From a virus: a stretch of 40,729 nucleotides of DNA. The notes beneath the pieces were generated by a model. That model searched no databases, was not told where the DNA came from, and worked only from the letters and a program-made list of their open reading frames with translations. The stretch lies in IMG/VR virus record IMGVR_UViG_3300020202_000147, positions 1 through 40,729 of that record. One strand, given 5' to 3'. Both the position numbers and the translations under genes were made by a program. Below, piece by piece: positions 10,401 to 34,399 of the stretch. How positions within the stretch are numbered: the stretch's first letter is position 1; every line of letters begins with the position of its first letter.

Positions 10401-10401
10401 T

Positions 10402-12752: not shown

Positions 12753-12754
12753 AA

Positions 12755-13780: not shown

Positions 13781-13788
13781 AAGAACTC

Positions 13789-14313
13789 CTAGACGGTTCT
13801 TAGAACTTCCATGAAATCTTTATGATCTGCGATTTCTTCTAGTCTCTCTTGAGGGTTGGAGGACTCGCAGTCTTTGAAAAATTTATCGCTGGTGGCTTCG
13901 TAAAGGACGGCCCAAGTCTCTTCGTCGCACTTGCTGAATTTTTTATTACCGATCTTTTCGGCAAGTTTTCCCTTAATCTTGGGGTGTAGGAAAAACGTCA
14001 AAGCCTGGGTTGCGACATCTAAATAAGAGTACGGAGTACCCAGTCTTTTTTCTGTGATGATATCAATCGCTGCCTTGTGGAAAGCACTTAGCCACCTCAC
14101 TCGAAATACCCTGATCTTCGACTCGTCATATTTGGTAATGGGCGAGAATTTGCTTTTCATCCACGCGCCATCAGTCTCGTAAATCTGGTTATTTGCGACG
14201 ATCGCAACATGCGAGACTTTCCCGAACGTAAACAGACCGATCAACTTAGACACAAACCCCGTTCCGAACACGAAAATAATATCCCCTGTTTCGTACAGCG
14301 CTGATGGCTTCAT
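13789..14313 (-). CDS. YiiX/NlpC-P60-like permuted papain-fold protein
   Basis: The 174-residue protein has LYETGDIIFVFGT at the N-terminus, then VSHVAIVANNQIYETDGAW with the His in SHVAIV, and KKFSKCDEETWAVLY with the Cys. In the permuted family the His strand precedes the Cys helix, as here. Such enzymes cleave or transfer amide or thioester bonds, including peptidoglycan stems. In phages they can act as virion-associated wall hydrolases or lipid-modifying enzymes. No signal peptide is visible. The ATG overlaps the upstream stop. Confidence 0.75.
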   Translation of the reverse strand: MKPSALYETGDIIFVFGTGFVSKLIGLFTFGKVSHVAIVANNQIYETDGAWMKSKFSPITKYDESKIRVFRVRWLSAFHKAAIDIITEKRLGTPYSYLDVATQALTFFLHPKIKGKLAEKIGNKKFSKCDEETWAVLYEATSDKFFKDCESSNPQERLEEIADHKDFMEVLRTV

Positions 14314-15036: not shown

Positions 15037-16431
15037 TTAAGTTATGGTTGCTGTTCTGCGTCTTGCTGCAGGAGCGGCACCACCTTCTGACGGTCTTAAT
15101 GCCACCTGATAACCGGCTGTGTCATCAGAAAGTGTCCAGGTAATCGTTTGATTTCCAGTGGCTCCTGCCGGAGCGATTTCCTTGTCAAATATGATCAAAT
15201 CACGATTTGCTGTATTGATCACTCGCTGGGTGTAGCCGTTACCTGGCCCAGCCGAAAGTGCAGAAGTCGAAGAGTCCACCGTCCCCATCACAAGACTAAA
15301 AGCGCCATCAGTCGCTGTTGTAAGAGAATCGCAATCAGAAACGCTGGAAGGGTCAACGTTGAAATTGTAAGTGGATGTTGTGTCCTCAACGGTTGTTGTG
15401 TTGACACCTGTATAGGTTGCTATAACAACTCCCCAAGCTCCTGAGCTGTTTGAAGTCCAAGCGTATGATGCTGGCTCTGAGCCGCCAGCAACTCGGTAAG
15501 CTACAAGCCCAACAAACACACCTGTTTCATTACGAAGTGAACCGATTGTGGTAAATGAGTTCGCGCCGTTGTTGTCAACTATTGAAGTGGCCGGATTGTT
15601 TGCGTAGACAAACGCAATCACGACATCACCAGATGTAACACCGGTAGGTTTTGTAATGCTGATTGCTGTTCCAGAGCTGCCTGTGGCGTTGCCTGTTCCG
15701 CTTGCCCTAACAGTAATCAGTGCTTTTTGAAACGTTGCCATCGTGGCACCGCTACGGGATACACCGTCCCCAGACCAAGTTGCAGTAACTGATGGAGTGC
15801 TCGTTGATGTAAGAACCCTAATAGCCGTACCGACAGCCTTGTAAGAGGCAGTTCCGGAGCCTTGTGTTTCATTCTGGATATTCGTAAACGAGTTATTGAC
15901 GCTAGAGATCGTGTCAGTATCACCACCGCCACCTGTAACACGATATCCCCACGCAGCGACAACCAATTCGTTGTTTTTGCTTGTTGTACCACTAGCGGTT
16001 ACCGCTTGTGTTGTAACTGTGTTTGTGTATGCGGTGGTGCCAGTCTTGTCCAGTGGGGATGGCCGCCAGGGCCCTTCGAATTCCCGGATTATTGTGGCGT
16101 GTTGATCAGCGGTATTCTGAGTAAAACCCCAAGTCGTTCCGTCTGCAGCCTGAACAACCCGATATCCGATGGCAGTTGAATCGGAGTTGGTTGTATCAGC
16201 GTTTTCAACCGCCTCTAGAAGCGTTCCGGCTACTACGAGATCAGTGTCGTCACCGGCAAAGCATGTTACTACGATCAAATTTCCAGCGGTTGGCGATCCA
16301 GCGAATGTCGCATTGACATTTGAACTACTAGGAGAATCGTTAACAGCTTCCTGAACAATATCCCCGAACGCCGCAAATGCAGTCTTATGCAGGCTCAGAA
16401 ACAGGATCAACAATAATAGGAGTTTCTTCAT
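15037..16431 (-). CDS. Secreted beta-rich fibre/adhesin-like protein with duplicated domain
   Basis: The 464-residue protein begins with a signal peptide, MKKLLLLLILFLSLHKTAFA. Two homologous beta-sandwich domains follow, about 22-235 and 237-450. Each has the order SPTAGNLIVV or GVTSGDVVIA, then GYRVVQAADGTTW or AYRVAGGSEPASY, then a FEG or YTG segment. The composition is Thr/Ser/Gly-rich with few charges, like exported adhesins and phage fibre knobs. It lies at the end of the tail module. It could be a receptor-binding component or a host-surface protein made by the phage. Confidence 0.65.
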   Translation of the reverse strand: MKKLLLLLILFLSLHKTAFAAFGDIVQEAVNDSPSSSNVNATFAGSPTAGNLIVVTCFAGDDTDLVVAGTLLEAVENADTTNSDSTAIGYRVVQAADGTTWGFTQNTADQHATIIREFEGPWRPSPLDKTGTTAYTNTVTTQAVTASGTTSKNNELVVAAWGYRVTGGGGDTDTISSVNNSFTNIQNETQGSGTASYKAVGTAIRVLTSTSTPSVTATWSGDGVSRSGATMATFQKALITVRASGTGNATGSSGTAISITKPTGVTSGDVVIAFVYANNPATSIVDNNGANSFTTIGSLRNETGVFVGLVAYRVAGGSEPASYAWTSNSSGAWGVVIATYTGVNTTTVEDTTSTYNFNVDPSSVSDCDSLTTATDGAFSLVMGTVDSSTSALSAGPGNGYTQRVINTANRDLIIFDKEIAPAGATGNQTITWTLSDDTAGYQVALRPSEGGAAPAARRRTATIT

Positions 16432-16885
16432 AGTCCCTTATAAAATTGCTTGGTTTGTCCCCGTAGGAAAACGCCCTAGCAGCAGCGTTAGCAATTGCGA
16501 AACTAGGTTCAATCTCTATAGCTTTACCATTCGCATCCCGGTACACATTTGGACATTCGATGCGCTCACTACGAATCCTTTCGTAAGTGTTGTCACCAAT
16601 CTCCACCTCGCCGGAATCCTCCAGTTCTTTTTGTCGTTCCGGATCACGAGTAATAAGTAAGACGTATTTTCGTTCGAGATAGCAGGAGGTTCCGTCGTCA
16701 GTTAGTTTCCAGCCTTTGGCAGAAAGCTCCTCAAGCACCGGATTAAGCGACTCTTTGCTTGAAGCGTCAGCGGATGGAAAATAGCTTTCTATGTTCTCAG
16801 AAATCTCGTTAGTAGCTTCAAGTGTTTCGTCAGCAGACGCGGCAGGAGAAATCAACAAAAGAAGGATAAGAATTAATCGTCCCAT
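16385..16885 (-). CDS. Secreted hypothetical protein
   Basis: ATG 16885 overlaps the end of the large fibre gene. MGRLILILLLLISPAASA is a signal peptide. The mature protein (about 148 residues) is acidic, with an alpha/beta central part (KGWKLTDDGTSCYLERKYVL), two Cys that may form a disulfide, and a C-terminal helical part. It overlaps the next gene by 47 nt. No family recognised. The flanking fibre genes suggest a periplasmic partner or chaperone, which is inference. Confidence 0.6.
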   Translation of the reverse strand: MGRLILILLLLISPAASADETLEATNEISENIESYFPSADASSKESLNPVLEELSAKGWKLTDDGTSCYLERKYVLLITRDPERQKELEDSGEVEIGDNTYERIRSERIECPNVYRDANGKAIEIEPSFAIANAAARAFSYGDKPSNFIRDYEETPIIVDPVSEPA

Positions 16886-19074
16886 GTACCCGTCCAGCAA
16901 ACGGAAAACCAAGTGGGGGTTCCGGAGACTGATGCGATATCCACATCAACACGATCTCCGGCAGCGATAGTTGCATCTCCGTCCAATGAAGTGTCTGTGT
17001 CTGGTGTCGAGATGCAGGCGAGATCAACAGAGTCCATATCAGCTGCAGTCCCGTCATCAACCTGCAACATCATATTGACTGTCTGATCTGACTCACACCA
17101 AAGTTTGGTTACTGTAAACCCGTTTGCCGTATCATTCACCCAAACGCTTTTATCATCGGTAGAAGCTGTCGGATCAACGGTGCGGTAGCATTTGGTATCT
17201 GTGTAAGTCTCGGCATCAGCCGCAACGTCGTTTGTTGAAAGCGTGAGACTTCTGCCAGCAGTTAGGGCTGTTTTACTAACAGAAATTGCCGCTGATGAGT
17301 TAATGTCTGCGTTCGTGATCGAATCGTCGGCGATTTCCCCACCCGTACCACCATCCACCGCACCGGCGGCGATTTCGTCGTCTTGAATGCCCAGGGCCTT
17401 AACAGAAACACCGCCGAAAGCTCCGACAGTAAAATTAGTGGTGTCAAACGAAGCAATGCCTGGTGTTGTCACAGTGGCAATGTCAGCAGAAACGATGGCT
17501 TTCCCTGCCACCGCACTTGATGCTTTTAATCCGGTGGTAAAATCAACCGTATCTGCGGAAACTACCTGAACACCGTCTTCTGACACGTTAATCGATCCGC
17601 CACCGGCAGAGGTTTGATCGGTGTAAGTGCAGTCAATTTCCGTGTTGGCTGAATCATAAGTACAAATTTTTGTGTCAGTTAACGTTCCTAAATCTGTGTT
17701 TTCAACCGCGCTCGCGCTATCTACTGTAATGTTGTTCGGAACCTGGGCATCCGTAACCGATCCTTGCAAGGCATCGAGATCGAGCACGCTTTCTAGTTCA
17801 GTCTCAACAGCCGCCTCGTCAAGATCCACAGATCCAAGCCCCGTACCGTCCACATCGCCTACGATATCGAGTGTGGACTCAAGTGTGGACTCGCCAGTTG
17901 CGTCAACCGCGTCGAGGCCATTAATCGTTCCAGTACCAGTAAGAGAGAGGGTTGGAGCAGATAGCGTTGTGGTTGTAAATGTTCCGGTGTTATCAAGGGA
18001 TGCAACGTCCGTAATCGCACCTCCAGCACGCACTCCAAATCCGATTGTTGAGGTGCTATTGGTTCCATTCATCGCGTTCCAGTATCCTGAGATCCTAAGA
18101 GCGCTTCTTCTCGTTCCGGCTTCATCTTCTGCGTCTAAAATAATCCCGGCTCCGAACCCTGCGGCAACGGTGCCTGTGGACATATGAACGTAACGGAGGA
18201 CTGACGTAATGGAATTTGTTGCAGAATCTTCAATTTCAGCCTGGAACTTTGAAAGCGGAGAAGTACAACCAACACAAAGTCTGTCGTTTGTGTCGTCCCA
18301 GAAAAGATTGGCGTTATCCTGCGTAATCAGACCAGAGGTTGTGACGTAAGGAATTGAACCAAGTGTCAGGTCAGATAATTTAAGTCCGGAGAGTGTCGGC
18401 CCGGTGCCGAACACGGCCAACCCGGTTCCCGTTTCATCCGAAAGCGCTGCAGCTAGACCTGCGGAGTTGGAAAGGTCTTCTTCGTAATCAGTGCACGACT
18501 CCACCGCGCCAGAAGCATCCACGCCAAGCGGAGCATTGCCAGCGGCACAATTTGCGCCATTCGCTGCTAAAGCCGTTGCTGTAGTCGCTGCACCGCCCTC
18601 AGATGCACTTCCGGCGTAGTTTCCCGTAGTCTCAGTGCCGAGCGTCACACCATCGTCTTTGATAGAAACAGTCCCACCGGCGGTAACGCCGAAATTATTA
18701 GAATCAAAAGATGCAATGCCTGGGGTTGTGGTGGTTGCAAAATCAGTTGAGACAACCGCCTTCCCTGACGCTGACGTGGTAACCGTGAGACCACTGGTAA
18801 AATTAATCGTGTCCGCACTGGTAACATGAACGCCGTCATTAGAGACCCGAACCGTCCCACCGCTCCCACCGGCCGCCGTATCATCATCCTGGCACGTCCA
18901 CACACCCGAGCCTTGAGATTTAAGGACTTTCCCAGACGCGCAGTTAATGGTTATGTCAGACTCCGACTCCGCACCGACATAATCCGGTTTGCTTGTGAAC
19001 GGATTAAATTTCTTCGCTGCATAGACATTGGAACACAGAGCCAAAAACAAAAGAACAAGAAACGCTTTTTTCAT
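16873..19074 (-). CDS. Large signal-peptide tail-fibre-like protein
   Basis: The 733-residue protein begins MKKAFLVLLFLALCSNVYA, with cleavage before AKKFNPFTSKPDYVG, a motif I have seen at the start of many environmental phage fibres. It is Ser/Thr/Gly/Asp-rich and repetitive. A unit of about 70 residues (GTVRVSNDGVHV...TPGIASFD) at 73-142 recurs at about 489-560 (INVSEDGVQV...TPGIASFD). Asp-rich passages such as TLDIVGDVDGTGLGSVDLDE resemble fibre shaft repeats. The C-terminal 110 residues form a Cys-containing beta domain like that of the 28.4-kb fibre. Probable receptor-binding fibre, unusual in having a Sec signal. Confidence 0.7.
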   Translation of the reverse strand: MKKAFLVLLFLALCSNVYAAKKFNPFTSKPDYVGAESESDITINCASGKVLKSQGSGVWTCQDDDTAAGGSGGTVRVSNDGVHVTSADTINFTSGLTVTTSASGKAVVSTDFATTTTPGIASFDSNNFGVTAGGTVSIKDDGVTLGTETTGNYAGSASEGGAATTATALAANGANCAAGNAPLGVDASGAVESCTDYEEDLSNSAGLAAALSDETGTGLAVFGTGPTLSGLKLSDLTLGSIPYVTTSGLITQDNANLFWDDTNDRLCVGCTSPLSKFQAEIEDSATNSITSVLRYVHMSTGTVAAGFGAGIILDAEDEAGTRRSALRISGYWNAMNGTNSTSTIGFGVRAGGAITDVASLDNTGTFTTTTLSAPTLSLTGTGTINGLDAVDATGESTLESTLDIVGDVDGTGLGSVDLDEAAVETELESVLDLDALQGSVTDAQVPNNITVDSASAVENTDLGTLTDTKICTYDSANTEIDCTYTDQTSAGGGSINVSEDGVQVVSADTVDFTTGLKASSAVAGKAIVSADIATVTTPGIASFDTTNFTVGAFGGVSVKALGIQDDEIAAGAVDGGTGGEIADDSITNADINSSAAISVSKTALTAGRSLTLSTNDVAADAETYTDTKCYRTVDPTASTDDKSVWVNDTANGFTVTKLWCESDQTVNMMLQVDDGTAADMDSVDLACISTPDTDTSLDGDATIAAGDRVDVDIASVSGTPTWFSVCWTGTWDD

Positions 19075-19865: not shown

Positions 19866-21572
19866 TTATTCTTGGGTTAAAAATCTCCTACCTTGCGCTA
19901 ACGCGTTGGCCATCGGCAAGCGTTTTATAGCATCACTTTTACCGGCCTTTCCGGCTGCGTACAGAGTGCGAGCCGTAATGCCCTTACCACCCTGATAAAG
20001 CTTCCTGGCAATAATGGGTATCCATAGCTTCGGGTTAATGACAGCGCCAGCCGATAAGCCTGAATCAACTATGTCTAATAGATTATTCCTGCTGGCTACA
20101 CTAGCCCTACCCTTTGCGACGCTGGCAACGTCGATCAGTTTTGATATCTTTCGATTTTTTTCTCCGATCTCGGGAACAGCTTGCCCAAGAGAACGTCTTA
20201 ATCCTCCAGTATATTCCTGACGGGTCATGATCTCTGGCGATGTTGTTGAAGAATCGTAAGGCGCGGCTTTTTTTGTTTTCATTAAAGCGTCTTGATCTCT
20301 TCGCAGACGCAAAACCTCTTTCGCGCTGAACTCTTTTGGCCTTTCACCGACCTTTATTGTTTCTTTCCGAGAAATGCCCTTTATCTCCGGTCTTAGCTCA
20401 AATTCTTCCTTTGGGCTAATTGAAACAATTTTTCTTGGCCGAACTCCGGCGCCGCCCGGAACATTCATTGCAACGATGTCTTCAGGGTTTTCGACAAATG
20501 TTTTGTCGGTAAGAATTTCTCTTAACGGATCTGATTTTTGATACTTACCGCTCTTTGTGTTTTTAACAGATTGATATTTTGTTCTATCTTGAAACTGCTT
20601 TAAAGGACCCTTCATGTCTTTTGAAAATACTTCTGTGATCTGTGGCTTTACAGACTTACCGGCAGGCCCCATCACAAATTGTGAAGTTTCTACGTTTTCA
20701 AAAACAGGCTCGGTTAACCTTTCTCCGCGAACGATATCATTTTTAACAGCCATAACTTTTTCCGCTGCTGGAGTGTCGCCACGCCTTTTGTACCACTTAG
20801 TTAAAGCATCCATGCGCCTTAAAGCAGGGGAAACGGAAATTTTAGCGGTGGAATTTTCAGCAAGTCGATCAACCTCATCCATGTATGCATCGATGTTAGA
20901 CTGGGCTGCGCGACGCGTGCCTTCTGCGCTTCCTCGAAGAACCCCCTCATCGAGCGCCGTCTTTGCAATCTTTTCGCTTCGCTTGGCAAATCTGCCAGTT
21001 GGGTGCAGGATGTTTTGAGCTATCCTGGTTCCGGCCTGCTCCATTCCTGGAGCCAACCGCCTAGCTGCACCAGCAACACCTTTTCCGGCGCCATAACCTG
21101 CGAGCATTTCCGTTCCAAGTCCGATTAGTTGACCAGTGCTAGAAACCGGTCTCGGAGCAACTGGAAATCCGACTGCGGTTTCTGGGGTAGCCAACGGTGT
21201 TTGAAGTATTGATTTATAAGCCGCTGCCGGACCGCCTCTTGCAAACTCTTTAAAGTGTCTTCCTGGATTTTTAGCTGCCTCAAATCCGCGCTCAAGGCTT
21301 TCACCTGGATATCCAGAAATAATCTTTGAAATAGGCTCCCGGCCAATGTCTGTTAAGCCTTGAGTAACCCCATGTGCTGCAGAAGCGACAATTCCAGGAA
21401 CATCTTCTTTAACCGGCCAGTATGGGGTTTTGGGTTCGGCGGCAGTCTTACCGTCGCCAGCTTTTGGCCTTGTTGCCTGAAACAAATCATCTAAAGACGG
21501 TTTTCCCTCAACTGGTGCCTTTGGTCTTGTTGCTAAGAATAGATCGTCTAAACTCGGTCGTTCGGCTGCCAT
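19866..21572 (-). CDS. Internal virion (ejection-type) protein with SLDDLF repeats
   Basis: The 568-residue protein starts with two copies of PSLDDLFxATRPKA (about residues 6-19 and 24-37). A long, basic, Ala/Gly/Lys-rich chain follows, with predicted amphipathic helices and a glycine-rich membrane-like segment at about 150-165 (IGLGTEMLAGYGAGKGVAGA). Size, composition and location between small internal proteins and fibres resemble podovirus ejection proteins, which are delivered with the DNA. The N-terminal motifs match ones in the scaffold and in the secreted plus-strand protein. Assignment is by composition and context. Confidence 0.65.
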   Translation of the reverse strand: MAAERPSLDDLFLATRPKAPVEGKPSLDDLFQATRPKAGDGKTAAEPKTPYWPVKEDVPGIVASAAHGVTQGLTDIGREPISKIISGYPGESLERGFEAAKNPGRHFKEFARGGPAAAYKSILQTPLATPETAVGFPVAPRPVSSTGQLIGLGTEMLAGYGAGKGVAGAARRLAPGMEQAGTRIAQNILHPTGRFAKRSEKIAKTALDEGVLRGSAEGTRRAAQSNIDAYMDEVDRLAENSTAKISVSPALRRMDALTKWYKRRGDTPAAEKVMAVKNDIVRGERLTEPVFENVETSQFVMGPAGKSVKPQITEVFSKDMKGPLKQFQDRTKYQSVKNTKSGKYQKSDPLREILTDKTFVENPEDIVAMNVPGGAGVRPRKIVSISPKEEFELRPEIKGISRKETIKVGERPKEFSAKEVLRLRRDQDALMKTKKAAPYDSSTTSPEIMTRQEYTGGLRRSLGQAVPEIGEKNRKISKLIDVASVAKGRASVASRNNLLDIVDSGLSAGAVINPKLWIPIIARKLYQGGKGITARTLYAAGKAGKSDAIKRLPMANALAQGRRFLTQE

Positions 21573-21599: not shown

Positions 21600-21854
21600 G
21601 TGGTCATGGATAATAGAGAAAATCTTACAAACTTATTCGACGAAGTTTTTAACGACGTGTACTCGAAATTCAAACTTGAGCCAATTTTAAAAAAACAGTT
21701 TGAAGACATCGGCGTCGCTAACTCCTATCTTGGAAAATCATATGACGAAGAAAAGAAATTCCTCATTGCGCTTATTGAGGCAACTGCCATTAGAGAGAGA
21801 AGCGTCTTCCGCGAATTGCTTATTCGCCTGAAGCTGCGCGGCTTTTTTGATTAA
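21600..21854 (+). CDS. Plus-strand small helical protein
   Basis: Start GTG 21600 with GAGGT 8 nt upstream, or ATG 21606. The 84-residue product has an amphipathic helical look (LTNLFDEVFNDVYSKFKLEP; REL LIRLKLRG). It is divergent from the minus-strand internal virion gene, with only 27 nt between them, so any promoter must lie within coding sequence. It is one of only two plus-strand genes in the window and probably a recent acquisition. No family recognised. Confidence 0.5.
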   Translation: MVMDNRENLTNLFDEVFNDVYSKFKLEPILKKQFEDIGVANSYLGKSYDEEKKFLIALIEATAIRERSVFRELLIRLKLRGFFD

Positions 21855-22018: not shown

Positions 22019-22438
22019 ATGAAAACGTTTCTGATTTTAATTACGCTATTTTGCATAACAAGCAATAGCTTCGCACAATCTGATTTTGCCGAGGCTACTG
22101 GCGAAATGGCTGATCGTGCGATGCGTTTGAGACAGATAGAACTTCAAGAGCAGCAAATGATGAACAACGCCAGACTTGCCCAGATGCAACAAATAGCGCA
22201 AATCAATGAGCAAGAGGCACAAGCGCAAATAGATGCTCAACAAAGAGCTAACACAATGGCGTTTCTTGATGCTCATCCAGATATTGTTTTCCGCTCTCCA
22301 GAATATAATCAAATCGCAGATCTTGTTGAGCTCGGATATGATCCTGAAGACGCTTACAAAATCGTCGTTAATAGAAGATCCCAAAAAAAGCCTTCTCTGG
22401 ACGAAATATGGGAACAAACACATCCAACTATTTCTTAG
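22019..22438 (+). CDS. Plus-strand secreted protein with virion-protein motifs
   Basis: ATG 22019 has a perfect GGAGG site 5 nt upstream. The 139-residue protein has a signal peptide MKTFLILITLFCITSNSFA. Its mature start SDFAEATGEMADRAMRLRQIE resembles the N-terminus of the convergent gene (SFADVTGDLANRAFQLRQLR). A Gln-rich coiled coil follows (MQQIAQINEQEAQAQIDAQQ). It ends KKPSLDEIWEQTHP, like the PSLDDLFxATRP repeats of the internal virion protein. It looks like a chimaera of phage morphogenesis segments behind a signal peptide. Its 3-prime end overlaps the convergent gene by 11 nt. Confidence 0.7.
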   Translation: MKTFLILITLFCITSNSFAQSDFAEATGEMADRAMRLRQIELQEQQMMNNARLAQMQQIAQINEQEAQAQIDAQQRANTMAFLDAHPDIVFRSPEYNQIADLVELGYDPEDAYKIVVNRRSQKKPSLDEIWEQTHPTIS

Positions 22439-23390
22439 ATTCAAGGTATTGCATAATGGTAGCATCATCTGCCCCATGCGCCTTAGCTGCTGAATAAAAA
22501 GCCTCTTCACCAATAGCCCATTCGGGAACATTAGCGCTTTGACGTTGCTCCTGTTTGTACCCTTCACGGCCTCGCGTTCGAACATTTCTCCTGTAAGCGT
22601 CATAAAAACTTTCTAACTCTTCTAGCGCCGGGTATAAAGCTTCTGGGTTGCTAGTAAAGCCTCCCAAGTAATCATTGGCTAGACGCTCGTATTCTTCAGG
22701 CCGCGTCGTTACGCCTGATTGCACAAGTAGCTTTGCCGCGATAGCTCCACCAAGCCACCGCCTTAAATTTTGAGCTTCAGCGCTAAGTGGCAGCTTTTTT
22801 CCCATAAAGCCTTTTTGCTCAAACGCAAGATCGCGTCTAAAAGATTTTGACGTTCCGTCAGGAAAAAGAGTCTGTCTCGCTTTTGGAATATTAATAAGCG
22901 CCTCTTCAGCAAGCGTGTCTTTTCCAGATTCACTGGTCGGAACACCTTTAGCCTCCTGCTTGATCCGTTCAATCTCGGCCAAGCTCTTTGTATCTACATA
23001 TTCCTTCGGCATTCCATAGGCGTCATATTTCGTAGTTAGAGAATTATCCGGCGGCTTCCCGGACTGATTTTTCATTCGGTTCACTTTTGCTTCAGCCAGA
23101 TCTGCTTGAGCTAATGAGCGCCTAGTATCAGCCTGGCTTTTTTGATAAGTTTGGCTGAGGGATGGATCGTAATCAACCGAAAGAGTTCTTTGGGTTTCGC
23201 CGGGTAAAAGTCCGAACAATCTTCTAGGACCGTGCGTTTCTTGAGGGGTTATTGTTACACCTTTTGTTTTCAGCTCTGCTTCTTTAAGTGTTCGGTCATA
23301 AAGATTCTGATCTTCCTGATTTCTTAATTGCCGAAGTTGAAATGCCCTATTAGCTAAATCTCCGGTTACATCCGCAAATGATCTTCCCAT
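22428..23390 (-). CDS. Putative internal virion protein
   Basis: The 320-residue hydrophilic helical protein begins MGRSFADVTGDLANRAFQLR and has a coiled-coil N-terminal third. A Ser/Thr linker and a globular helical C-terminus follow (AQNLRRWLGGAIAAKLLVQS; NPEALYPALEELESFYDAYR). It is in line with the 266-residue glycine-zipper protein and the 568-residue protein, as for podovirus ejection proteins. It ends 11 nt inside the convergent plus-strand gene. No family recognised. Confidence 0.6.
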   Translation of the reverse strand: MGRSFADVTGDLANRAFQLRQLRNQEDQNLYDRTLKEAELKTKGVTITPQETHGPRRLFGLLPGETQRTLSVDYDPSLSQTYQKSQADTRRSLAQADLAEAKVNRMKNQSGKPPDNSLTTKYDAYGMPKEYVDTKSLAEIERIKQEAKGVPTSESGKDTLAEEALINIPKARQTLFPDGTSKSFRRDLAFEQKGFMGKKLPLSAEAQNLRRWLGGAIAAKLLVQSGVTTRPEEYERLANDYLGGFTSNPEALYPALEELESFYDAYRRNVRTRGREGYKQEQRQSANVPEWAIGEEAFYSAAKAHGADDATIMQYLESKK

Positions 23391-23394: not shown

Positions 23395-24195
23395 TCACCT
23401 AGTAAAGTTTTTACTTGCGTTCATAAACGCAATGAAAGTTGGGTCTTTTTTCATGTTAGTACTATCGCTAAAGCTTTTTCCGGGAACGCTGATTCTTGGG
23501 TCGTAGGTGGGCGCTTGAGGCGTTTGATTTATCTTTGGGCTCTTTAGCGCTTGTTGTGTAAAGTAAGCATTTCCACCACCGGCTAATGCCGACGCCATTG
23601 GATCTTCATAAGCATCCGCCTCCTGCATCTGAAGACCGCGTCTTGAGAGTTCGTTTCCGCTCTCTGTCCTAAAAACATCCAGATCGAAGTTCGCTGCCTC
23701 GTTCTCCTGCCCGAAATTAAACGTATTAAGATCCTGCAGTCGCGCGGTGTTCGTGTCCCGTTCTTCATTCCGACGGGCTAAATCCTCAATATCAATTCTG
23801 TTGGTGTATAAGTTCTTTTCCCGACCGGCTTCTCTGAGTGCACGACCGATCACTTCGTCATAAGCCGCTGCGTTTCTGGAAAGCCCCATACCGGACAGAC
23901 GGTTGTTTAAATCAGCCTTCGTATCTTCAAGATCCCGGTCTTGCTCGATCTCGAAGTTCTTCAACAAAGCATCACGCCGGGCCGGGTCATAACCAACACC
24001 CTGACCCTGGGCGCGTTCCATCGTGATCTTGGTAATCAGGTCTTCGACAGGCCTTAAATGCTGAGTATGAGGAGGACGATACCCGGAGTATTTGGGCATC
24101 GCATCCGACACGCCCTTCATTTTTTTGTTCTTGGCTTTAGCGCCCATGTATCCGCCGAGCGCGCCGCCAGCAGCTAATAATGCAAGTCCGAGCAT
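23395..24195 (-). CDS. Putative internal virion/ejection protein with glycine zipper
   Basis: The 266-residue protein starts MLGLALLAAGGALGGYMGAK, a glycine-zipper membrane helix seen at the N-terminus of many podovirus internal proteins. A basic loop (KAKNKKMKG) and long helical, Arg/Asp/Asn-rich coiled regions follow, with a disordered C-terminus. The ATG has an AAAGGAGG site. Family resemblance suggests a P22 gp7-type ejection protein that helps DNA cross the envelope, but I see no direct homology. Confidence 0.65.
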   Translation of the reverse strand: MLGLALLAAGGALGGYMGAKAKNKKMKGVSDAMPKYSGYRPPHTQHLRPVEDLITKITMERAQGQGVGYDPARRDALLKNFEIEQDRDLEDTKADLNNRLSGMGLSRNAAAYDEVIGRALREAGREKNLYTNRIDIEDLARRNEERDTNTARLQDLNTFNFGQENEAANFDLDVFRTESGNELSRRGLQMQEADAYEDPMASALAGGGNAYFTQQALKSPKINQTPQAPTYDPRISVPGKSFSDSTNMKKDPTFIAFMNASKNFTR

Positions 24196-24208: not shown

Positions 24209-24352
24209 TTAAGGCTCTAACGCAGCAACTCTATCTTCTAGAGCCTGCAGATATTCAAGTAGTAATGAAATTAAGATTTGTAGTTCTTCTAAACTCTGGT
24301 TCTTTGGGTCCCGGTTAATCCAGGGTTCAAGGTCGTTGATATCAACCGTCAT
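24209..24352 (-). CDS. 47-residue leucine-rich helical protein
   Basis: ATG 24352 overlaps the upstream TGA (ATGA). The product begins MTVDINDLEPWINRDPKNQS and ends with a leucine-rich helix (LEELQILISLLLEYLQALED). It may be a small coiled-coil structural or assembly factor. It precedes the AAAGGAGG site of the next gene by only a few bases. Confidence 0.55.
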   Translation of the reverse strand: MTVDINDLEPWINRDPKNQSLEELQILISLLLEYLQALEDRVAALEP

Positions 24353-24735
24353 TTAATCAGCCCAATCGCTTTCGCTTCTTCAAACTCAGCAGCCGTCAGC
24401 TTTAAAAGCTCGCGTTTTCTCTGTTCAACCTGCGCTTTTTTGGCCTCGTCTTTTTCTTTCTCCGAATTATCAATCTTTATTTTCTTCCCGAAAGGAACGT
24501 GATTAATCGTCCAATACTTCCGGTCAGTCCGGTCACTCGGAAGATCGCTTGGTTTAATTCGGTGGATCGGACGGCCCCAATACCCAAGCTGTTTCACAAC
24601 GTCTTCCAGCGTGTCTTTTGAGCCTTCCAAGTAATTAATCACTGAAACCCCACCATCTTCGCGCTGGACGGCGTAAAGTTCCGCAAATGCGTCATGAGAA
24701 ATAAAAAGAGAGATTAAAAGGATAAGAATAATCAT
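24349..24735 (-). CDS. Secreted hypothetical protein
   Basis: ATG 24735 overlaps the fibre stop (ATGA); the upstream extension is a basic out-of-frame shadow. MIILILLISLFISHDAFA is a signal peptide. The mature part (110 residues) has YAVQREDGGVSVINYLEGSK, a GYWGRPIHRIKPSDLP segment and a long charged C-terminal helix. Comparable protein ends follow fibre genes in other phages, where they serve as small chaperones or adaptors, but that comparison is loose. Confidence 0.6.
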   Translation of the reverse strand: MIILILLISLFISHDAFAELYAVQREDGGVSVINYLEGSKDTLEDVVKQLGYWGRPIHRIKPSDLPSDRTDRKYWTINHVPFGKKIKIDNSEKEKDEAKKAQVEQRKRELLKLTAAEFEEAKAIGLIK

Positions 24736-26102
24736 CGTCTGAAATCTCCAAATGCAACGGCGGTTACGACCGCGCTGTCTCTTGCGGTGCCGCCTTCGTC
24801 TTCTGTTGTTATTGATGAAGAGCCTGTTGCCTGCGCATAACACGTTGGAATATTCGGGCTTCCGGCGCTTGCAGAACCCCCGTTCGCAACGCAGGCGTAA
24901 TTCGCGGTATTAAAATCAGCGTCCCAGGTAACCGTATAATCCCCGGTTCCGTTGTCAGTAAGGGATGAAACGTTGTAAGACTGCCTAATGGCAATGGTTC
25001 CGGTGCCGTCAAAATTCACCCATCCGCCAATAATCTCTCTTTCCGTAAGAGCGTGTGCGGTCATCGTGTCTTGTGACGTGAAAAGGTTTGATGCGTCGGA
25101 GTTGATTGAACCGATAAGTCTGTAATTCGTAACCCCCGTCGGCGCAGACGAGCTTTCTGAGAATGTCACCGAGAAAGTCTTCACAGACTCCTGGTCTGCC
25201 ACGCCGTAGACGTAGTATCTCTTAGGCCCACCTGTCACCGATCCTGTGTCAAGTCCAGATCCGCCGGTTAACGGCGCATCCGTAGAAGTCGTGACCGTGA
25301 CATCTTGGCTTAAAATTCTATATTTCCCGTTGATGTAAAGAGCGCCGGGTGTAACCTTAAAAGACGTGTGCGCGTTCCACGAAACATACGCACCCTGAGC
25401 AAACCCCTGCGGCGTTCTTCCTGTCGGAGAGAACCGTCTGACCGGCTGCCCGTTCGTTAAGATGTCCTCAAGCGTAGCCTCGCTCGCAGCATCATTGATG
25501 GACTGGAACGGCCCCGTCGCACAGCTTGTCGATCTTAAATCTTGGATAGATACGATCTGCGTTGCATCCGTCGAGGCTCGGAACAGCTTCACGGAGTTGG
25601 CCGGTTGGGAAGGTTCTGACCCGTCAATCGTCTGTGTCTGGGAAGTGAACGATCCGCTTGTTAAAAGATAGTAATACGTCCATTTATTAGCCTCTAACGT
25701 CGCAGACGTGGAGGATGTCTTTTCGACTCTGTACCCGTCGGGGTACGCAACCCCGGCCGGGATGGTAAGCACAAGACTTGAACTGGTTGATGGTAATAGT
25801 CCTGAATAAACAAGATCACCGCAGCTTGCGCCTTCGGCGGTCCTAACCCTCGGATTGGCATCATCGGCCATGTTTTCTTCACCGATGGTGTCCGCCTTGA
25901 TCTGACCGGAGGACTGTGCGCTTCCGGCGTACACGCCGCGAATGTTGTTTACGCTATTCGCAAGCGTCGTGCGGTCCCGGTTCAACTGCCCGACAAGATC
26001 CGTCTGTCCGGCAACATAATTCGACTCAAGACTTGCGACATCGGCGAACGCCGGAGAGGTTATTAAGAATAAGAACAGGCTATATCGAAACAATTTTTGC
26101 AT
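24732..26102 (-). CDS. Secreted fibre/tail protein with knob domain
   Basis: ATG 26102 has GAAGGA upstream; the longer frame is inside the upstream gene. The signal peptide is MQKLFRYSLFLFLITSPAFA. The mature protein (about 436 residues) has an N-terminal coiled stretch (VAGQTDLVGQLNRDRTTLAN). Beta-rich repeats follow (SSSLVLTIPAGVAYPDGYRV; WNAHTSFKVTPGALYINGKY), then a C-terminal part YTVTWDADFNTANYACVANG ... VAFGDFRR, which I recognise as a phage fibre tip fold. Probable receptor-binding or auxiliary fibre, but with a Sec signal. Confidence 0.65.
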   Translation of the reverse strand: MQKLFRYSLFLFLITSPAFADVASLESNYVAGQTDLVGQLNRDRTTLANSVNNIRGVYAGSAQSSGQIKADTIGEENMADDANPRVRTAEGASCGDLVYSGLLPSTSSSLVLTIPAGVAYPDGYRVEKTSSTSATLEANKWTYYYLLTSGSFTSQTQTIDGSEPSQPANSVKLFRASTDATQIVSIQDLRSTSCATGPFQSINDAASEATLEDILTNGQPVRRFSPTGRTPQGFAQGAYVSWNAHTSFKVTPGALYINGKYRILSQDVTVTTSTDAPLTGGSGLDTGSVTGGPKRYYVYGVADQESVKTFSVTFSESSSAPTGVTNYRLIGSINSDASNLFTSQDTMTAHALTEREIIGGWVNFDGTGTIAIRQSYNVSSLTDNGTGDYTVTWDADFNTANYACVANGGSASAGSPNIPTCYAQATGSSSITTEDEGGTARDSAVVTAVAFGDFRR

Positions 26103-27660
26103 GTTTTTTCCTTCGGTCAGGTTCGACATCGTATCGGATAGATCGAAAAGACATTTTTTGATTAACGTTATAATTGCTGAGCCTAAACTGCACCGAGTCA
26201 GAAACAAGATCCACGAGGTGCATCTGATCCGTCGAAGACTCGAAGTCCGCCGGGTCACTATCAAGATCAATCGCTTCTAAAGGATAGTTCTCGCCTTCCA
26301 TGTACTGCTGGTAAGTCAGAAACGCTTCATTTTCGTAACCTTTCAAGACTTCAATATCAAACGACCACGATCCTTCGTTCGGAGTATCCACATACAGGTT
26401 CGAGTATTTCTTGAACCAGGACACGTCCAGCTTTGAGCCTTTGTATTCCTCTTCGGTTCTAAGGCCTGTCATTAAAACGGTGGGGATTAAACTTCCGTCA
26501 TCTTGCATCTCGGTTGAATACTGCGTCCTGTAATCCGCGACTTTAAAAACCCTTGCTCCGTCCGTGTGTTTCCTGGCGAATAAATGCTCACCTTTGAATT
26601 TCGTGGAACTCAGAGCCACTGACGCGCTAAATCCGTATGTGTGCGGCCCGTAGATACATGGCGAACCGGTGTCTTTGTTGACATTGATCGTGTCGAAATG
26701 AAGCGTGTAGTCGTTTTCCATCGACGCATCGATCGCAACCGAAAGCTTGTACAGATTGTCAACGTGCTCGGCGCAGGCGTCTTTTACTTTGGCAGGGTTA
26801 ATTCGTCTTAGGAATGGTTCAACATCGTAGGAAATAAGTCTTACTTTTGAACCGTCAAACGCATAAACCCCGATCTCGTTTTCCGGGGAATAACCGAGGA
26901 ACCAAAGTTCATCACCGACCTTTTTGACCGTCTGAGGAGCAACGCACCCACCCTGGAAACTCATCTGCTCCGGCCGCCAGTTTGACGGAGAACCGATGAT
27001 GTAATAAACCCAGATTGAGTTAGTTCTGAGGATCACCAAGCGCCCGTTCATGATCATCAACTTTTCAGGAACGTCACCGCGAGCCGGAGGCTGTGTGTCT
27101 ACGTTGATCGCCGCCCAACGGATCGGAACACCGCCCATGTCTGCCAGGTCATCTGTCCAAACCAGTTCGTTATTCGCCGTGATCCCGAAGGCTCGGTTGG
27201 TTTCTTTGGCGATAATGATGTCTTTTAGGAGAATTGACTCTCCGGAGGTATTTGTAATCAGTCGTTTCACCACCGATATCCCGTCATATTCAAAAAACCC
27301 GTCTTTCGGGTTCGCAAAGTACGTCTTATCCCGTAAATTCGCGGCCTGTTTAATGACGCCAGGCGTCAACCCGGTCAAAAGCTCCGTAAATTCATTCGCA
27401 CCAAAATTCTTTTTCATGATCTTGTCATCCACGCACACTAAGACATCTTGTTTGTCTTCGTTGTCGTTGTAATTGACAAAAATCCCGGTCGGAGCGTTCG
27501 TCCCGATCGTGTCCCCGTGATACCGGACTGATCCTTTGATCTGTTCAAAGACTTCCTGGTGCGTCATATCCACGTTCTGCATTAAAAAGAACTGGTTCTC
27601 GGGTGTGTCGTATGCCTTAAGTCTTAAATTAACGCCGCCTTTCGGTCTGATCTCTGGCAT
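26080..27660 (-). CDS. Tail nozzle/tubular-like protein
   Basis: The 526-residue protein (MPEIRPKGGVNLRLKAYDTP...) has repeated beta-strands with AxxRDKTYFANPKDGFFEYD, ELVWTDDLADMGGVP and NGRLVILRTNSIWVYYI segments. The repeat pattern suggests a beta-propeller, as in the gp10-type tail hub/nozzle of P22-like phages and T7 gp12. It has no signal peptide, unlike its neighbours, in keeping with assembly inside the cell. The assignment is from pattern and gene order. Confidence 0.65.
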   Translation of the reverse strand: MPEIRPKGGVNLRLKAYDTPENQFFLMQNVDMTHQEVFEQIKGSVRYHGDTIGTNAPTGIFVNYNDNEDKQDVLVCVDDKIMKKNFGANEFTELLTGLTPGVIKQAANLRDKTYFANPKDGFFEYDGISVVKRLITNTSGESILLKDIIIAKETNRAFGITANNELVWTDDLADMGGVPIRWAAINVDTQPPARGDVPEKLMIMNGRLVILRTNSIWVYYIIGSPSNWRPEQMSFQGGCVAPQTVKKVGDELWFLGYSPENEIGVYAFDGSKVRLISYDVEPFLRRINPAKVKDACAEHVDNLYKLSVAIDASMENDYTLHFDTINVNKDTGSPCIYGPHTYGFSASVALSSTKFKGEHLFARKHTDGARVFKVADYRTQYSTEMQDDGSLIPTVLMTGLRTEEEYKGSKLDVSWFKKYSNLYVDTPNEGSWSFDIEVLKGYENEAFLTYQQYMEGENYPLEAIDLDSDPADFESSTDQMHLVDLVSDSVQFRLSNYNVNQKMSFRSIRYDVEPDRRKKHAKIVSI

Positions 27661-28439
27661 TAGTTCCCACCGCCCATCAAAACCACTCTCCGGCGCACCG
27701 CATCACAATCCGTATACGCTGAGGACGGGCCGCCTGACGGTGGCACGATCGCAACACCTTTAACAATTCTGTATTCGTCTAACCAGCCATGCATCGGAAG
27801 CGCACCGGTGTCGCCACGACCTCCAATGCCGATAGCTCCGGTTTTGTTTGAGACAGCCGAAGCGTCTGTGGCTGTTGATCCGATCTGGGCACCGTCAACG
27901 TACATCTTGAAATCGTTCCCGGTTCTTAAAAGCGTAACGTGATACCAAACATCAATCGAAGGACTCCATGCATTTGAAACGGCAATTACGTTTGACCCGG
28001 CATCCTGAACTGTAAAATCAAGAGTTCCGGCTGCATTCCAAAAGAAAACGATTTCGTTCGTCGCATCCTGTCTTTGGTACAGAAACGACCGGCTGGCAGA
28101 CACGTCCGCGAAATACACCCAAAAATCGATCGTGAAGGCTCCGGTGTCGAAGTGAATGTCATCCGTGTCCGCAAACGATAACCAGTCCCCTGTACCGTCA
28201 AACTTTCCTGATGCGCCACCGAACTGACTCTTAGCGGTGTCTATCTGGGCATGCCCGTTCGCTGTGATCGACTTCGCGCCATTGTCCGAGTCTGTAAACG
28301 TCGTAGATTCATCCGTGCCGTCCATGTGCAGCATCAAGGACGTGTCGTCAACGTCATAACAAGACGTGGTGCTCGCAGCAAAACACAGCGCTGGCGAGAT
28401 AAGGATCAGAGTTAAAAGACTAAGTGTTTTATTCAGCAT
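27660..28439 (-). CDS. Secreted LamG/concanavalin-A-like lectin domain protein
   Basis: After a signal peptide (MLNKTLSLLTLILISPALCF), one jelly-roll LamG_3-type domain covers most of the 259 residues. Its hallmarks are DDTSLMLHMDGTDESTTFTD, KFDGTGDWLSFADTDD, FTIDFWVYF, WYHVTLLRTGNDFKMYVDG and GWLDEYRIVKG. This fold binds glycans and is common in phage tail fibres and adhesins. The start overlaps the fibre gene upstream by 11 nt. It probably helps bind host surface sugars. Confidence 0.75.
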   Translation of the reverse strand: MLNKTLSLLTLILISPALCFAASTTSCYDVDDTSLMLHMDGTDESTTFTDSDNGAKSITANGHAQIDTAKSQFGGASGKFDGTGDWLSFADTDDIHFDTGAFTIDFWVYFADVSASRSFLYQRQDATNEIVFFWNAAGTLDFTVQDAGSNVIAVSNAWSPSIDVWYHVTLLRTGNDFKMYVDGAQIGSTATDASAVSNKTGAIGIGGRGDTGALPMHGWLDEYRIVKGVAIVPPSGGPSSAYTDCDAVRRRVVLMGGGN

Positions 28440-29487
28440 CGATTGTGTAGTTGATTTTTACCTGTACGCCCGTAACCGTCCCCGTGACTGCCCCACCGTC
28501 GATTGCAATGTAATCTCCTGCATCGATCGTGGGATTTGTAAGGCTTCCGTCATCGGCTGCGCCGGTGTTACCGCAGGTAATTGTGGTGTCAACGGTTGAA
28601 CAGTTATCTCCGTTCCCGTCGCACTCCTGGACATCAATCACCGCAGACTCACCCGTTCCTGCCGGATCAACGATACAGGTAATACTTGTGATCGTGATCG
28701 GGTCAGCGACTTTATCCACATAAATCAAATCTGTGGCTGCCGGGCTTTCGTAGTAAATGGGATAGCTTTTCTTGTAGGTCACGACTCGTTTACTTGCACC
28801 GTAATACGCGAACTGGTCGTCTGATGTATCCACCGCAACTTCACCAGCTGCGTCAACGGTTGGCCCTGTTCCGCTTGGGATGGCTAATGACGATGTAGTA
28901 ATTGTGCTACCAGTGATCGTTGCGTTTCCGCTCACCCGGAGCGTGCTGTGAATGTGCGTTGTTACCGCAGACACCGCATCCGCTGAGGCGTTTACAAACA
29001 CCGCGTTTGCGCTCGAGCGAAGAACTCCGCCCGATTTAACGTGCACCGCATCAAACGATGCTTTTGACATCACGACGTTTCCGCTCGCGGTTAAGGTTGT
29101 GCTGACACTCACTGTGTTGGCAGATACAACGATCCCGTCTGGTAGAACGAACGTGTTGTCTGACGAAACGCCAAGTCTTACTCTCTGGCCGGAGGTTGTT
29201 AGCCAAGCCAAATACTGGTCGTTCCCAATATTCACGACATCTTTTGAGCTCACAACGTTCCGGGTGCTTAACACACCGCCGGAGTTAAACGACGCGTAAT
29301 TAACTGTTCCGCCAAGGATCGTGACGCCGTAAAGGTTCGTCAACGTGTCCGACTGAAGAACCTGCGTTGCTTCGAGCGAGGTTCTGACGATCGTTTCATT
29401 GGAAGAAACAACACCAGATCCGGTTTCTGTTTCCCACGCAAACGCGTTTGAGCTTAAAAGCAAAAGAATGGCTAGAATTTTCTTCAT
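28429..29487 (-). CDS. Secreted tail-fibre-like protein
   Basis: ATG 29487 overlaps the O-antigen-ligase-like stop (ATGA). The signal peptide is MKKILAILLLLSSNAFA. A Ser/Thr/Val-rich shaft with repeats follows (VVSANTVSVSTTLTASGNVV; AVSAVTTHIHSTLRVSGNAT). The C-terminal Cys-containing beta domain (ITITSITCIVDPAGTGESAV; DAGDYIAIDGGAVTGTVTGV) resembles the end of the 733-residue protein. A role as fibre or surface adhesin is likely. Export by Sec is the oddity. Confidence 0.65.
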   Translation of the reverse strand: MKKILAILLLLSSNAFAWETETGSGVVSSNETIVRTSLEATQVLQSDTLTNLYGVTILGGTVNYASFNSGGVLSTRNVVSSKDVVNIGNDQYLAWLTTSGQRVRLGVSSDNTFVLPDGIVVSANTVSVSTTLTASGNVVMSKASFDAVHVKSGGVLRSSANAVFVNASADAVSAVTTHIHSTLRVSGNATITGSTITTSSLAIPSGTGPTVDAAGEVAVDTSDDQFAYYGASKRVVTYKKSYPIYYESPAATDLIYVDKVADPITITSITCIVDPAGTGESAVIDVQECDGNGDNCSTVDTTITCGNTGAADDGSLTNPTIDAGDYIAIDGGAVTGTVTGVQVKINYTIDAE

Positions 29488-30593
29488 GAATAGTCCTCTT
29501 GTAATAAAGCCTCGACGCAAGCGAGCATGTAACAGGCAAGCCCGGCGAACCGCCCTAGATGAAATGGAAAATGGAATAAGGAAACGACCACTAACGGGAT
29601 AAGAATAGAAATCGCCATCCGGTGTCGATGAAACGTCAGATCAATCCGCGACCAGATGTTTTTAAAATAACAGTAAAGAAGAACAAGCCCGATAATCCCG
29701 GCCTCAAAGATCCACTGGATGAATTCGTTATGAGCCCAGGTCCAGGTCTGCGGCTGGCCGTTCTCCTGAAGTGTGGTAAATCCTGTGACCGCCCATGACC
29801 CGAGCCCCATCCCGAACCAGGGTTTTGACCCTGCGATATAGTTGATCCCTGCAAACCAGATATTGAAGCGTTTCGGGAACTGCCCGGACGGCATATCGAT
29901 TTTCAGGATGTAAAACACCCCGGCTGCGACCGCTGCGATGAACACAGCCCAGAATATTTTTTTGTTCTTGTGCCACAACAGAAACAGAAGCGAAGCGATC
30001 AAGGCCACCACCGCCGTTGACGACTTCCCGAACCACAACAAAGGAATGCAGATGATTGCGTTGAACGGATTGGCTGCGAAGATGAACGGGAACGCCATCG
30101 CCGCCAGACAACCGAGGTTTGCTTTCAGGCCCATAAACCCAACCTGATCCGGCTCCGGCATGTTCTGGGGCATGGAACTTTTGAAAATAGGATCAATGTT
30201 GTGGATCTGCAGAGCTAACCAGATCACGTTCAGGGCGCAAAATAATGCGAGTAAATTCCCGATCGCTTTAAAATCTAAATCAACTCTCTCGGCCAGTTCT
30301 TTGATCAGCGCAACGCCGAGGAAAAAGTTAAGAAGTTTTAGTCTTGAGTTCGGAGTGAAATGAAACAGAACTGTATTTAAAATGACGTAGGCTAAAATCA
30401 AGGCAAGGTAGAAGTTCGTGAACGGGCGCGTTCTCGGAACGAACAAACACACCGCCAAAAACCCCATAACCCCGTACTGGAAGAACATCTCCTGCGGTGC
30501 GTAGAAATGCAGACCAGGAATATAGAACGTTGTGCATCCGATCAGAAAGAATTTGAGGTAAGTATCGAAGGAGATCCTTTGGATGGCGCTCAA
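29484..30593 (-). CDS. O-antigen ligase/polymerase-like membrane protein (Wzy_C family)
   Basis: The 369-residue protein has about ten hydrophobic segments. It also has the long periplasmic loop typical of Wzy/WaaL, with WFGMGLGSWAVTG (about residue 260) and WAHNEFIQWIFEAGIIGLVL (about 287). The latter is the conserved H-N-x-x-x-Q-x-x-x-E-x-G-x-x-G-L signature of Wzy_C enzymes that ligate or polymerise undecaprenyl-linked O-antigen. Upstream and downstream genes are coupled by 4-nt overlaps, so it is a proper operon member between neck and fibre genes. It probably alters the host surface polysaccharide. Substrate is unknown. Confidence 0.85.
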   Translation of the reverse strand: MSAIQRISFDTYLKFFLIGCTTFYIPGLHFYAPQEMFFQYGVMGFLAVCLFVPRTRPFTNFYLALILAYVILNTVLFHFTPNSRLKLLNFFLGVALIKELAERVDLDFKAIGNLLALFCALNVIWLALQIHNIDPIFKSSMPQNMPEPDQVGFMGLKANLGCLAAMAFPFIFAANPFNAIICIPLLWFGKSSTAVVALIASLLFLLWHKNKKIFWAVFIAAVAAGVFYILKIDMPSGQFPKRFNIWFAGINYIAGSKPWFGMGLGSWAVTGFTTLQENGQPQTWTWAHNEFIQWIFEAGIIGLVLLYCYFKNIWSRIDLTFHRHRMAISILIPLVVVSLFHFPFHLGRFAGLACYMLACVEALLQEDYS

Positions 30594-31802: not shown

Positions 31803-32312
31803 TTAGACAATCGTGATATAAGCAAGCGATGTGTCTTCACCGTTACCAGAAGCAGCGGTGGTTTCGAGAGCGAAACCAAGCTGATTGATGGTGTTGGAAG
31901 TCACAAGCGAAGCATCACCTGACGTGCTGACGAACAGAGCATTACCAGAAGTAACTGTCTCTGTGGTCTTAATGCCGACATAGCCTTTGCCGCGAACAAT
32001 CGCCATTCCTGTATTTCCGGAGGCAATCGTTGTTTGAGCAACACCAGCGACACGCACACCATCTGCCGAAGCGGAAGAAACGCGAACCTGGAACGCGCCG
32101 TAATCTGCATCATGAGCGGTGTTGTTCACATCAAACACAAGCACCGTTCCCTGAGACACAAGCGTTGTTTCGTTCGAGGCTACGCGAACTGTCACCCAGC
32201 AATCATCCGACGAACCTTCCACGTTTCTGCCTTCCGCGCACTGAAGAGCAAATGCGTTAGAAGCAGAAACAAGGAGGATCGCAAACAAGAAAACTAAATG
32301 TTTAAGTTTCAT
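31803..32312 (-). CDS. Secreted decoration-like protein
   Basis: Located directly after the capsid gene with AAGGAGG before ATG 32312. The N-terminus MKLKHLVFLFAILLVSASNA followed by FA is a Sec signal, and the mature protein starts LQCAEGRNV. Repeated beta segments (VRVASNETTLVSQGTVLVFD; GVAQTTIASGNTGMAIVRGK; GYVGIKTTETVTSGNALFVS) resemble the beta-tulip DUF2190-type decoration proteins that stud HK97-fold capsids. The position is the standard one for a decoration protein. A signal peptide on such a protein is unexpected. It may instead coat the cell surface. Confidence 0.6.
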   Translation of the reverse strand: MKLKHLVFLFAILLVSASNAFALQCAEGRNVEGSSDDCWVTVRVASNETTLVSQGTVLVFDVNNTAHDADYGAFQVRVSSASADGVRVAGVAQTTIASGNTGMAIVRGKGYVGIKTTETVTSGNALFVSTSGDASLVTSNTINQLGFALETTAASGNGEDTSLAYITIV

Positions 32313-33358: not shown

Positions 33359-34399
33359 TTAGGAACGAATTTCTTCGAGTCCTTGTGAGAAAATTTCGTC
33401 TAGGTTGGACGCTTCAGGCTTGGCACTGGCTGGAACACGGGAAGCCGGTTTTGCAGGAGTGCGTTTAGTCGCGTCCTTCGACTCGGTAAAAACCTTTTTG
33501 ATCGCTTCTTTTTCCGTACGCCCAAGCTTCGCTAAAGCCAAACGGTACATCTCATCAAGCGAGATTCGCTTTCCGTCGTCGTCTTTCAATCCTGAAAAAC
33601 GCGCCATTGTGGAAAGCTCTTCTTGTGTAAGCTTGATTCCAGACTTCTGTTTTTCAGAAATCCAGGACTCGACTTCCCGAACCGCTTCTTTGCGCTCGAA
33701 CTCTTGCTTCTCAGCAAGAAGCTGCTGTTCTTTGCGCTCTTGTTCCTGGCGGTACTGGTCAAACTCACGTCTGACGCTGATCACCTGGGAGTCTCGGGAG
33801 TAATCGACGGGTTGTCCGTTCTGCCCTGCGAGGGGTCCTACGGGGTTCTTACCTTGTGCGATTAAGGATACGTCTTTAGCGAAGGCTGAAATCTGTGTTG
33901 CGAGTTGATCGGAACCGTGCTGGTAGACATGCCAGAAATTATGAAAAAACGACATATCTTCCGGGCCCGGCTTTACCGCTCCCCACGCTTGGGATTCCTT
34001 GGCCTCTTTTTCCTCAAATTGTTTCTGTAATTCCGCAGCTTTCTTGCGTTCCTCTGCTGCCTGCATCGTCTTCCGGGTATAGTCCGACTGGCGCAGAAAT
34101 CCTTCTTTAAGAAGTGGGTTCCTATCCAGGAACGCCTGAAATTCTTTCTCGTTCTTAAAGGCGACTTTGCGCGCTTCGTCTAACGTGATCTCGCCAAAGG
34201 GTGTCTCGACGGCAGGTTGTTCTGCCTCGTCAACTTGTCCTTCAGGTTGAACTTCTTCCGGTTGGCTAGTTTCTTCAGGACTACCAGCCTTATCCTTGAG
34301 AGCTTCACCAAAAATATCCGAGATGCTTTCCGGGGCTGCGCTTGCCTCGGGAACGCTTGTCTCCGCAATATCTGGTGCTGCTTGCTCGATGTCTTCCAT
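33359..34399 (-). CDS. Scaffolding protein
   Basis: The 346-residue protein is acidic and disordered at the N-terminus (Glu/Pro/Ser-rich). It has a middle part with FKNEKEFQAFLDRNPLLKEG, a long coiled coil (QYRQEQERKEQQLLAEKQEF) and a basic linker before the end. It lies directly before the capsid gene, as scaffold genes do. An ESISDIFGEALKD motif (about residues 24-36) and a C-terminal ASNLDEIFSQGLEEI resemble the SLDDLF motif in the internal protein. The C-terminal end in P22-type scaffolds binds coat protein. Confidence 0.8.
   Translation of the reverse strand: MEDIEQAAPDIAETSVPEASAAPESISDIFGEALKDKAGSPEETSQPEEVQPEGQVDEAEQPAVETPFGEITLDEARKVAFKNEKEFQAFLDRNPLLKEGFLRQSDYTRKTMQAAEERKKAAELQKQFEEKEAKESQAWGAVKPGPEDMSFFHNFWHVYQHGSDQLATQISAFAKDVSLIAQGKNPVGPLAGQNGQPVDYSRDSQVISVRREFDQYRQEQERKEQQLLAEKQEFERKEAVREVESWISEKQKSGIKLTQEELSTMARFSGLKDDDGKRISLDEMYRLALAKLGRTEKEAIKKVFTESKDATKRTPAKPASRVPASAKPEASNLDEIFSQGLEEIRS

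Follow-up and report, generated by a model that had tools for sequence, protein, structure and literature searches.

A predicted exported protein, encoded among putative ejection-protein genes of an uncultured podovirus-like phage, carries segments resembling two of its neighbours

We analysed a window consisting of the whole 40,729-base virus record IMGVR_UViG_3300020202_000147, an uncultured virus of bacteria, and focused on a small plus-strand gene, here called A (22019..22438, +). It lies in a two-gene cassette with orf84 (21600-21854), between gene B (22428..23390, -), which encodes a 320-amino-acid (aa) putative ejection (internal) protein, and gene C (19866..21572, -), which encodes a 568-aa putative large ejection protein. 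A is convergent with B and overlaps its 3' end by 11 bp. The open reading frame (ORF) could open at 21989, and a strong ribosome-binding site, the Shine-Dalgarno sequence GGAGG, stands before the ATG at 22019. Codon usage indicated that A is coding, with +0.08 bits/codon in frame as against -0.06 to -0.27 in the five other frames.

The product would be a 139-aa precursor giving a mature protein of 120 aa (13.9 kDa, isoelectric point 4.6) that is mostly helical. A Sec signal peptide, MKTFLILITLFCITSNSFA (22019..22075, +), was read from the sequence and was also flagged by a heuristic scan; cleavage probably falls between SFA and Q, and there is no lipobox. This predicted signal peptide would place mature A at or outside the inner membrane, which is where superinfection-exclusion (Sie) proteins need to be. 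An AlphaFold2 model made from the single sequence (predicted local distance difference test score, pLDDT, 79.6; predicted template modelling score, pTM, 0.34) has helices at residues 2-85, 94-104, 109-121 and 127-134, so that a long first helix, ending at residue 85, is followed by a small hairpin and a final helix. A fold search of this model against viral structures gave no convincing match, the best having an E-value of 0.18.

An earlier note, made from the sequence alone, had described A and B as convergent genes whose N-termini align residue by residue, and both the coordinates and the alignment proved right. We observed 13/25 identical residues between A residues 22-46 (22082..22156, +) and B residues 4-28 (23307..23381, -), and the ungapped local alignment extended over 35 residues (A 23-57, B 5-39) with a raw score of 73. 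None of 20,000 shuffles of A reached this score (mean 33, maximum 66); the comparison with shuffled controls had been set beforehand as the refuting test, and the alignment stood above them. The Gumbel p was 3e-5 when B was taken at full length and 7e-7 when only the N-terminal regions were compared. The alignment with a hidden Markov model, which the note had proposed as a check, agreed: a profile of the B proteins of two phages, the second being a related phage, G002 (L004/L008), was aligned to A by hhalign with a P-value of 1.4e-5 over exactly these 25 columns. B used as a query against the window's own record found A (E 8e-4), and A used against related records found the B of G002 (E 1e-4). 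In a comparison of the N-terminus of A with a pool of 221 ORFs, drawn from the window and from several phages, only the two B proteins were clear of the background, with scores of 73 and 70 and the next at 54. These results suggest that the match can serve as a working basis; however, it is a single short helix, of a type that can converge. Only residues 22-57 of A match, and paralogy with B was not found beyond this N-terminal helix. The C-terminal helical hairpin of A was also compared with the C-terminus of B and was rejected as a match, since it scored at shuffle level. The model of B (pLDDT 50) was too poor and was not used for a fold search.

The other end of A resembles protein C. The N-terminus of C holds two copies of [RK]PSLDDLFxATRPKA, with the doubled core [KR]PSLDD[LI]F; copy 1 is RPSLDDLFLATRP (21522..21560, -) and copy 2 is KPSLDDLFQATRP (21465..21503, -). 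The C of the related phage (L008:2547-4400) starts with a similar doubled motif, KPSLAEIF and RPSLEAIF. A position-specific scoring matrix (PSSM) was built from these four copies, with A left out. The best match in the window outside C itself was KPSLDEIWEQTHP, residues 124-136 of A (22388..22426, +), modelled as the last helix; the helix at 127-134 coincides with the core of the motif, and the protein ends with KPSLDEIWEQTHPTIS. The PSSM score of A was 19.2, as against 11.0 for the next ORF outside C and at most 16.8 in 20 shuffled proteomes, which bears out the earlier claim that the C-terminus of A matches the repeat of the internal protein. Plain alignment of this region with full-length C was weak (582/20,000 shuffles, p 0.026), and the strength of the match comes from the motif model and not from plain alignment.

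Doubled motifs of other kinds were also seen. In Mx8 the last virion structural protein (L014 23509-25260) starts with the doubled motif PPVDVEW ... PPPDVEW (PPxDVEW), of unrelated sequence, and virion proteins of this kind may often have a doubled motif at the N-terminus. The distant relatives Mx8, BUCT555, two spring-water phages and L011 had no evident B/C motif pair.

We considered whether the resemblances could be due to chance, with A an unrelated exported protein. The segments are short, they were picked after the whole window had been read, and about 2,000 ORF pairs were possible. Among the 1,953 ORF pairs of the window the A-B pair ranked 6th, the five higher ones being pairs of long structural or fibre-like ORFs, and its E-value of 6.7e-6 (uncorrected) becomes about 0.01 after 1,953 pairs. 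Against chance there is this pair value, the B of the second phage matches the same segment, and the C motif score lies above all shuffled proteomes. We consider chance a very improbable explanation.

As to the origin of A, the earlier note had proposed an inverted duplication of a neighbour, followed by the gain of a C-terminal motif and of a signal peptide. The mosaic itself, of a signal peptide, a B-like N-terminus and a C-like tag, held up; a recent inverted duplication did not. The B proteins of the two phages are 27% identical overall, with the N-terminal 40 residues the most conserved (21/40 identical). Within the 25-residue segment A has 13 residues in common with each of the two B proteins, which have 15 in common with one another. 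At third codon positions the identity between A and B was 24%, which is the random level, and only 2 of the 13 identical residues use the same codon. Since the distance of A from the neighbouring B equals that from the B of the other phage, and since synonymous sites are saturated, no recent inverted duplication is visible, and at the DNA level we rejected A as a recent inverted duplicate of B. What A holds would rather be a conserved segment of B, either copied long ago or arrived at by convergence. If A does derive from B, this would have happened before or about the divergence of the B proteins of the two phages; otherwise a shared docking motif would have been acquired in another way.

The genes around A belong to a podovirus-like late module on the minus strand, with terminase, portal, scaffold, capsid, a cement-like protein and several fibre-like proteins, continuing with a stopper-like protein (26080-27660), a 266-aa putative internal protein (23395..24195, -), B and C. 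The 266-aa protein, upstream of B, is a conserved neighbour (60% identical in L008), and the relative of B in the same phage is at L008:1037-2179. The 266-aa protein, B and C, all encoded past the stopper gene, occupy the region that corresponds to T7 gp14-16 and P22 gp7/20/16, and we infer from this position that they are ejection proteins. None of the three has a family match: B gave none in Pfam, PHROGs, NCBIfam or the phage collection, and C none in Pfam or PHROGs. In this B differs from the podovirus ejection proteins, and A differs further in adding a signal peptide and lacking most of B. The first gene of the cassette, orf84 (21600..21854, +), is a coding ORF by codon usage (+0.305 bits/codon) and is probably the second member of this reverse-strand pair; it had no relative and no supported family match. 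The phage also carries an integrase-like gene and, in the late module, a Wzy_C (O-antigen ligase/polymerase-like) gene, which is consistent with a temperate life. The Wzy_C membrane protein gene (29484-30593) is surrounded by the head-tail module; L004, a relative, has it too (12735-13826), and L003 has an opposite-strand fragment (3067-3675). Scans of bacterial genomes for a host or prophage gave no match.

Only the searches with the capsid and the stopper gave relatives, and one of these, G002, is the only one to cover the B-C region; searches of viral contigs found no relatives of B and C, and none of the 266-aa protein beyond one known record. G002 is without A. Its slot between B and C holds two tiny overlapping opposite-strand ORFs (L008 2151-2442, -) with predicted membrane segments and good ribosome-binding sites; codon statistics were neutral in frame for one of them (2151-2315), the other was read from the printed sequence, and both are tentative. 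It also has an opposite-strand ORF with a signal peptide, convergent with C (L008 4360-4632, -). Since the small opposite-strand ORFs in this slot differ from those of the window, the slot looks like a place for accessory genes.

We further evaluated whether A belongs to any known family. No match was found in viral contigs, nor in phage records at E up to 1, and we therefore make no family claim. Against Sie and other families, Pfam and PADLOC gave no match and NCBIfam only weak ones, far below the cut-off. PHROGs gave no supported match beyond weak ones and an artefact of the signal peptide: phrog_2315 was rejected as a family for A, as its match was due to the signal peptide alone and vanished when the mature protein was the query.

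A was also compared with known exclusion systems. SieA of Salmonella phage P22 has been reported to block the ejection-protein conduit (PMC10883804). Like A, sieA is convergent with an ejection-protein gene (gene 16) of a temperate podovirus, and the proposed target of both would be the ejection-protein conduit. A differs in its cleavable signal peptide and in its likeness to ejection proteins, and the parallel is drawn from position and not from direct sequence comparison. Ltp of Streptococcus phage TP-J34 has been reported as an exported lipoprotein whose interaction partner is the tape measure protein of the incoming phage (PMC3952083). It is, like A, a phage-encoded exported protein, and it acts on the injection apparatus; unlike A, which is without a lipobox, it is a lipoprotein from the lysogeny module of a Gram-positive phage. 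Glo of Vibrio phage K139 is described as an exclusion protein that is soluble in the periplasm (PMC3952083), a property also predicted for mature A, and the likeness is drawn from this description; no ejection-protein segments are mentioned for Glo in that paper, in contrast to A. The sieA-like convergent position, together with the known soluble periplasmic Glo, makes plausible the suggestion of the earlier note that A is a secreted inhibitor of superinfection.

The best single explanation, to which we give a probability of about 0.4, is that A encodes an exported superinfection-exclusion factor of the moron type, which would present the docking segments of ejection proteins in the periplasm. 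A would be a moron-type gene in a reverse-strand slot among putative ejection-protein genes. Its product would pass the inner membrane by the Sec route and lose its signal peptide, to become a soluble periplasmic protein, acidic and helical, with the conserved B-like helix at its N-terminal end and the C motif at its C-terminal end. Expressed from the prophage in phage-carrying cells, A would bind the partners of these segments when the B and C of a related phage are ejected into the periplasm, and would so keep the DNA-entry conduit from assembling. Both shared segments exceed chance, and in the relative, too, C begins with a doubled motif. The part shared with B is also the most conserved part of B between phages that are otherwise quite different, as would be expected of a binding segment. 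That a temperate phage excludes its relatives by an exported decoy built from its own docking segments (the B helix plus the C tag) is a more doubtful proposition, which we offer tentatively. Put differently, exclusion here might be a mimicry of injected proteins, with the decoy sited where incoming ejection proteins build their conduit; this is the same reading, and is held just as loosely. In the library searched, no paper bore directly on exclusion by ejection-protein mimicry or on Sec-exported virion proteins.

Several observations weigh against exclusion as the role of A. Upstream of A there is one weak sigma-70-like site on the plus strand, no more than in shuffles, and no prophage repressor was identified in the phage. 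A was seen in one genome only, which says nothing on how well it is conserved. The N-terminal match is short and of a helical type that recurs by chance, since a helix of a plant MADS-box protein in the PDB fits this pattern with E = 1.2. Such recurrence would favour A being a periplasmic accessory protein with another role, such as an envelope or lysis helper or a lysogenic-conversion factor, in which generic helix-docking patterns were re-used or had converged. A signal peptide followed by a long helix is also superficially like an inner-membrane spanin; the normal signal-peptidase cleavage site, as read from the sequence, would be unlike the uncleaved N-terminal anchor of a spanin. Moreover, two independent terminal segments match neighbours from the same module, with a low chance probability. 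We regard such an accessory role as unlikely.

Export too has to be weighed. The signal peptide of A is normal-looking but not distinctive here, as about nine other proteins of the virion module carry one. A simple heuristic flagged five other late-module ORFs with textbook signal peptides (15037, 16385, 16873, 28429 and 31803), and a sixth (27660) scored with a slightly shifted cleavage site. Two more were recognized by eye, from internal starts (24732-26270 and 24349-24843), and an RlpA-like ORF (9848-10468) is also counted. The heuristic is crude, and a few of its hits in the window are improbable as exported proteins; in T7, P22, Mx8, BUCT555 and the two spring-water phages it gave 0-3 hits, some of them known membrane proteins (spanins, a holin). 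The ejection-type, capsid, portal, scaffold and stopper proteins are without a signal peptide. Since signal peptides are common on virion-module proteins, export alone is no pointer to exclusion, and it lends support to the main rival explanation, that A is an exported virion component or assembly factor of this lineage, joining particles in the periplasm or after lysis, with its segments holding the partners of B and C. The proteins with a signal peptide include the cement-like protein beside the major capsid protein, whose signal peptide, although diverged, is kept in four phages. However, A lies on the strand opposite to the whole virion module and is not in the corresponding slot of the relative, and the other signal-peptide proteins look exterior, whereas A resembles interior ones. 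We consider a virion component improbable, to the same degree as an accessory role.

In the module as a whole, Sec signal peptides were seen on cement-like, fibre-like and LamG-like proteins (15037-19074, 24349-29520 and 31803-32312), and they are kept in relatives where checked (L003 2386-2916, L004 10963-11526, L005 6491-7015). Exterior virion proteins may be exported before they join particles.

A further motif was examined in the scaffold, identified by PHROG 3927. Near its C-terminus it has ASNLDEIF (33389..33412, -), like the motifs of A and C. In four phages the scaffold carries S(L/I)DEIF, or a near variant of it, some twelve residues before its C-terminal end, and SLDEIF/TIDEIF is kept in the scaffolds of L003, L004 and L005. 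That an SLDEI[FW] motif also ends the scaffold would favour A as a virion component. The presence of the SLDEIF-type motif in the scaffold would suggest that it binds the capsid within the procapsid; if so, an exported exclusion decoy would have no obvious target in the periplasm. With a PSSM made from the scaffold instances alone, the score of A was within proteome noise, and the link of the scaffold motif to A and C is tentative, a lead only. In all four phages the scaffold (33359-34399; L003 318-1355, L004 8892-9998, L005 4398-5450) has a conserved N-terminal xSDIF as well as the C-terminal SLDEIF-type motif, and these resemble the doubled N-terminal motif of the putative ejection protein C.

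If A does act as an exclusion factor, its two segments would point to the contacts by which the ejection proteins of this uncultured podovirus-like lineage assemble, and exclusion genes could arise by the joining of such contacts to a signal peptide. A possible search rule would then be to look for exported proteins that share terminal motifs with convergent neighbouring ejection genes, which may reveal further exclusion factors elsewhere among phages. SLDEIF, if the scaffold, the ejection protein and A do share it, would be testable as a capsid- or portal-docking motif.
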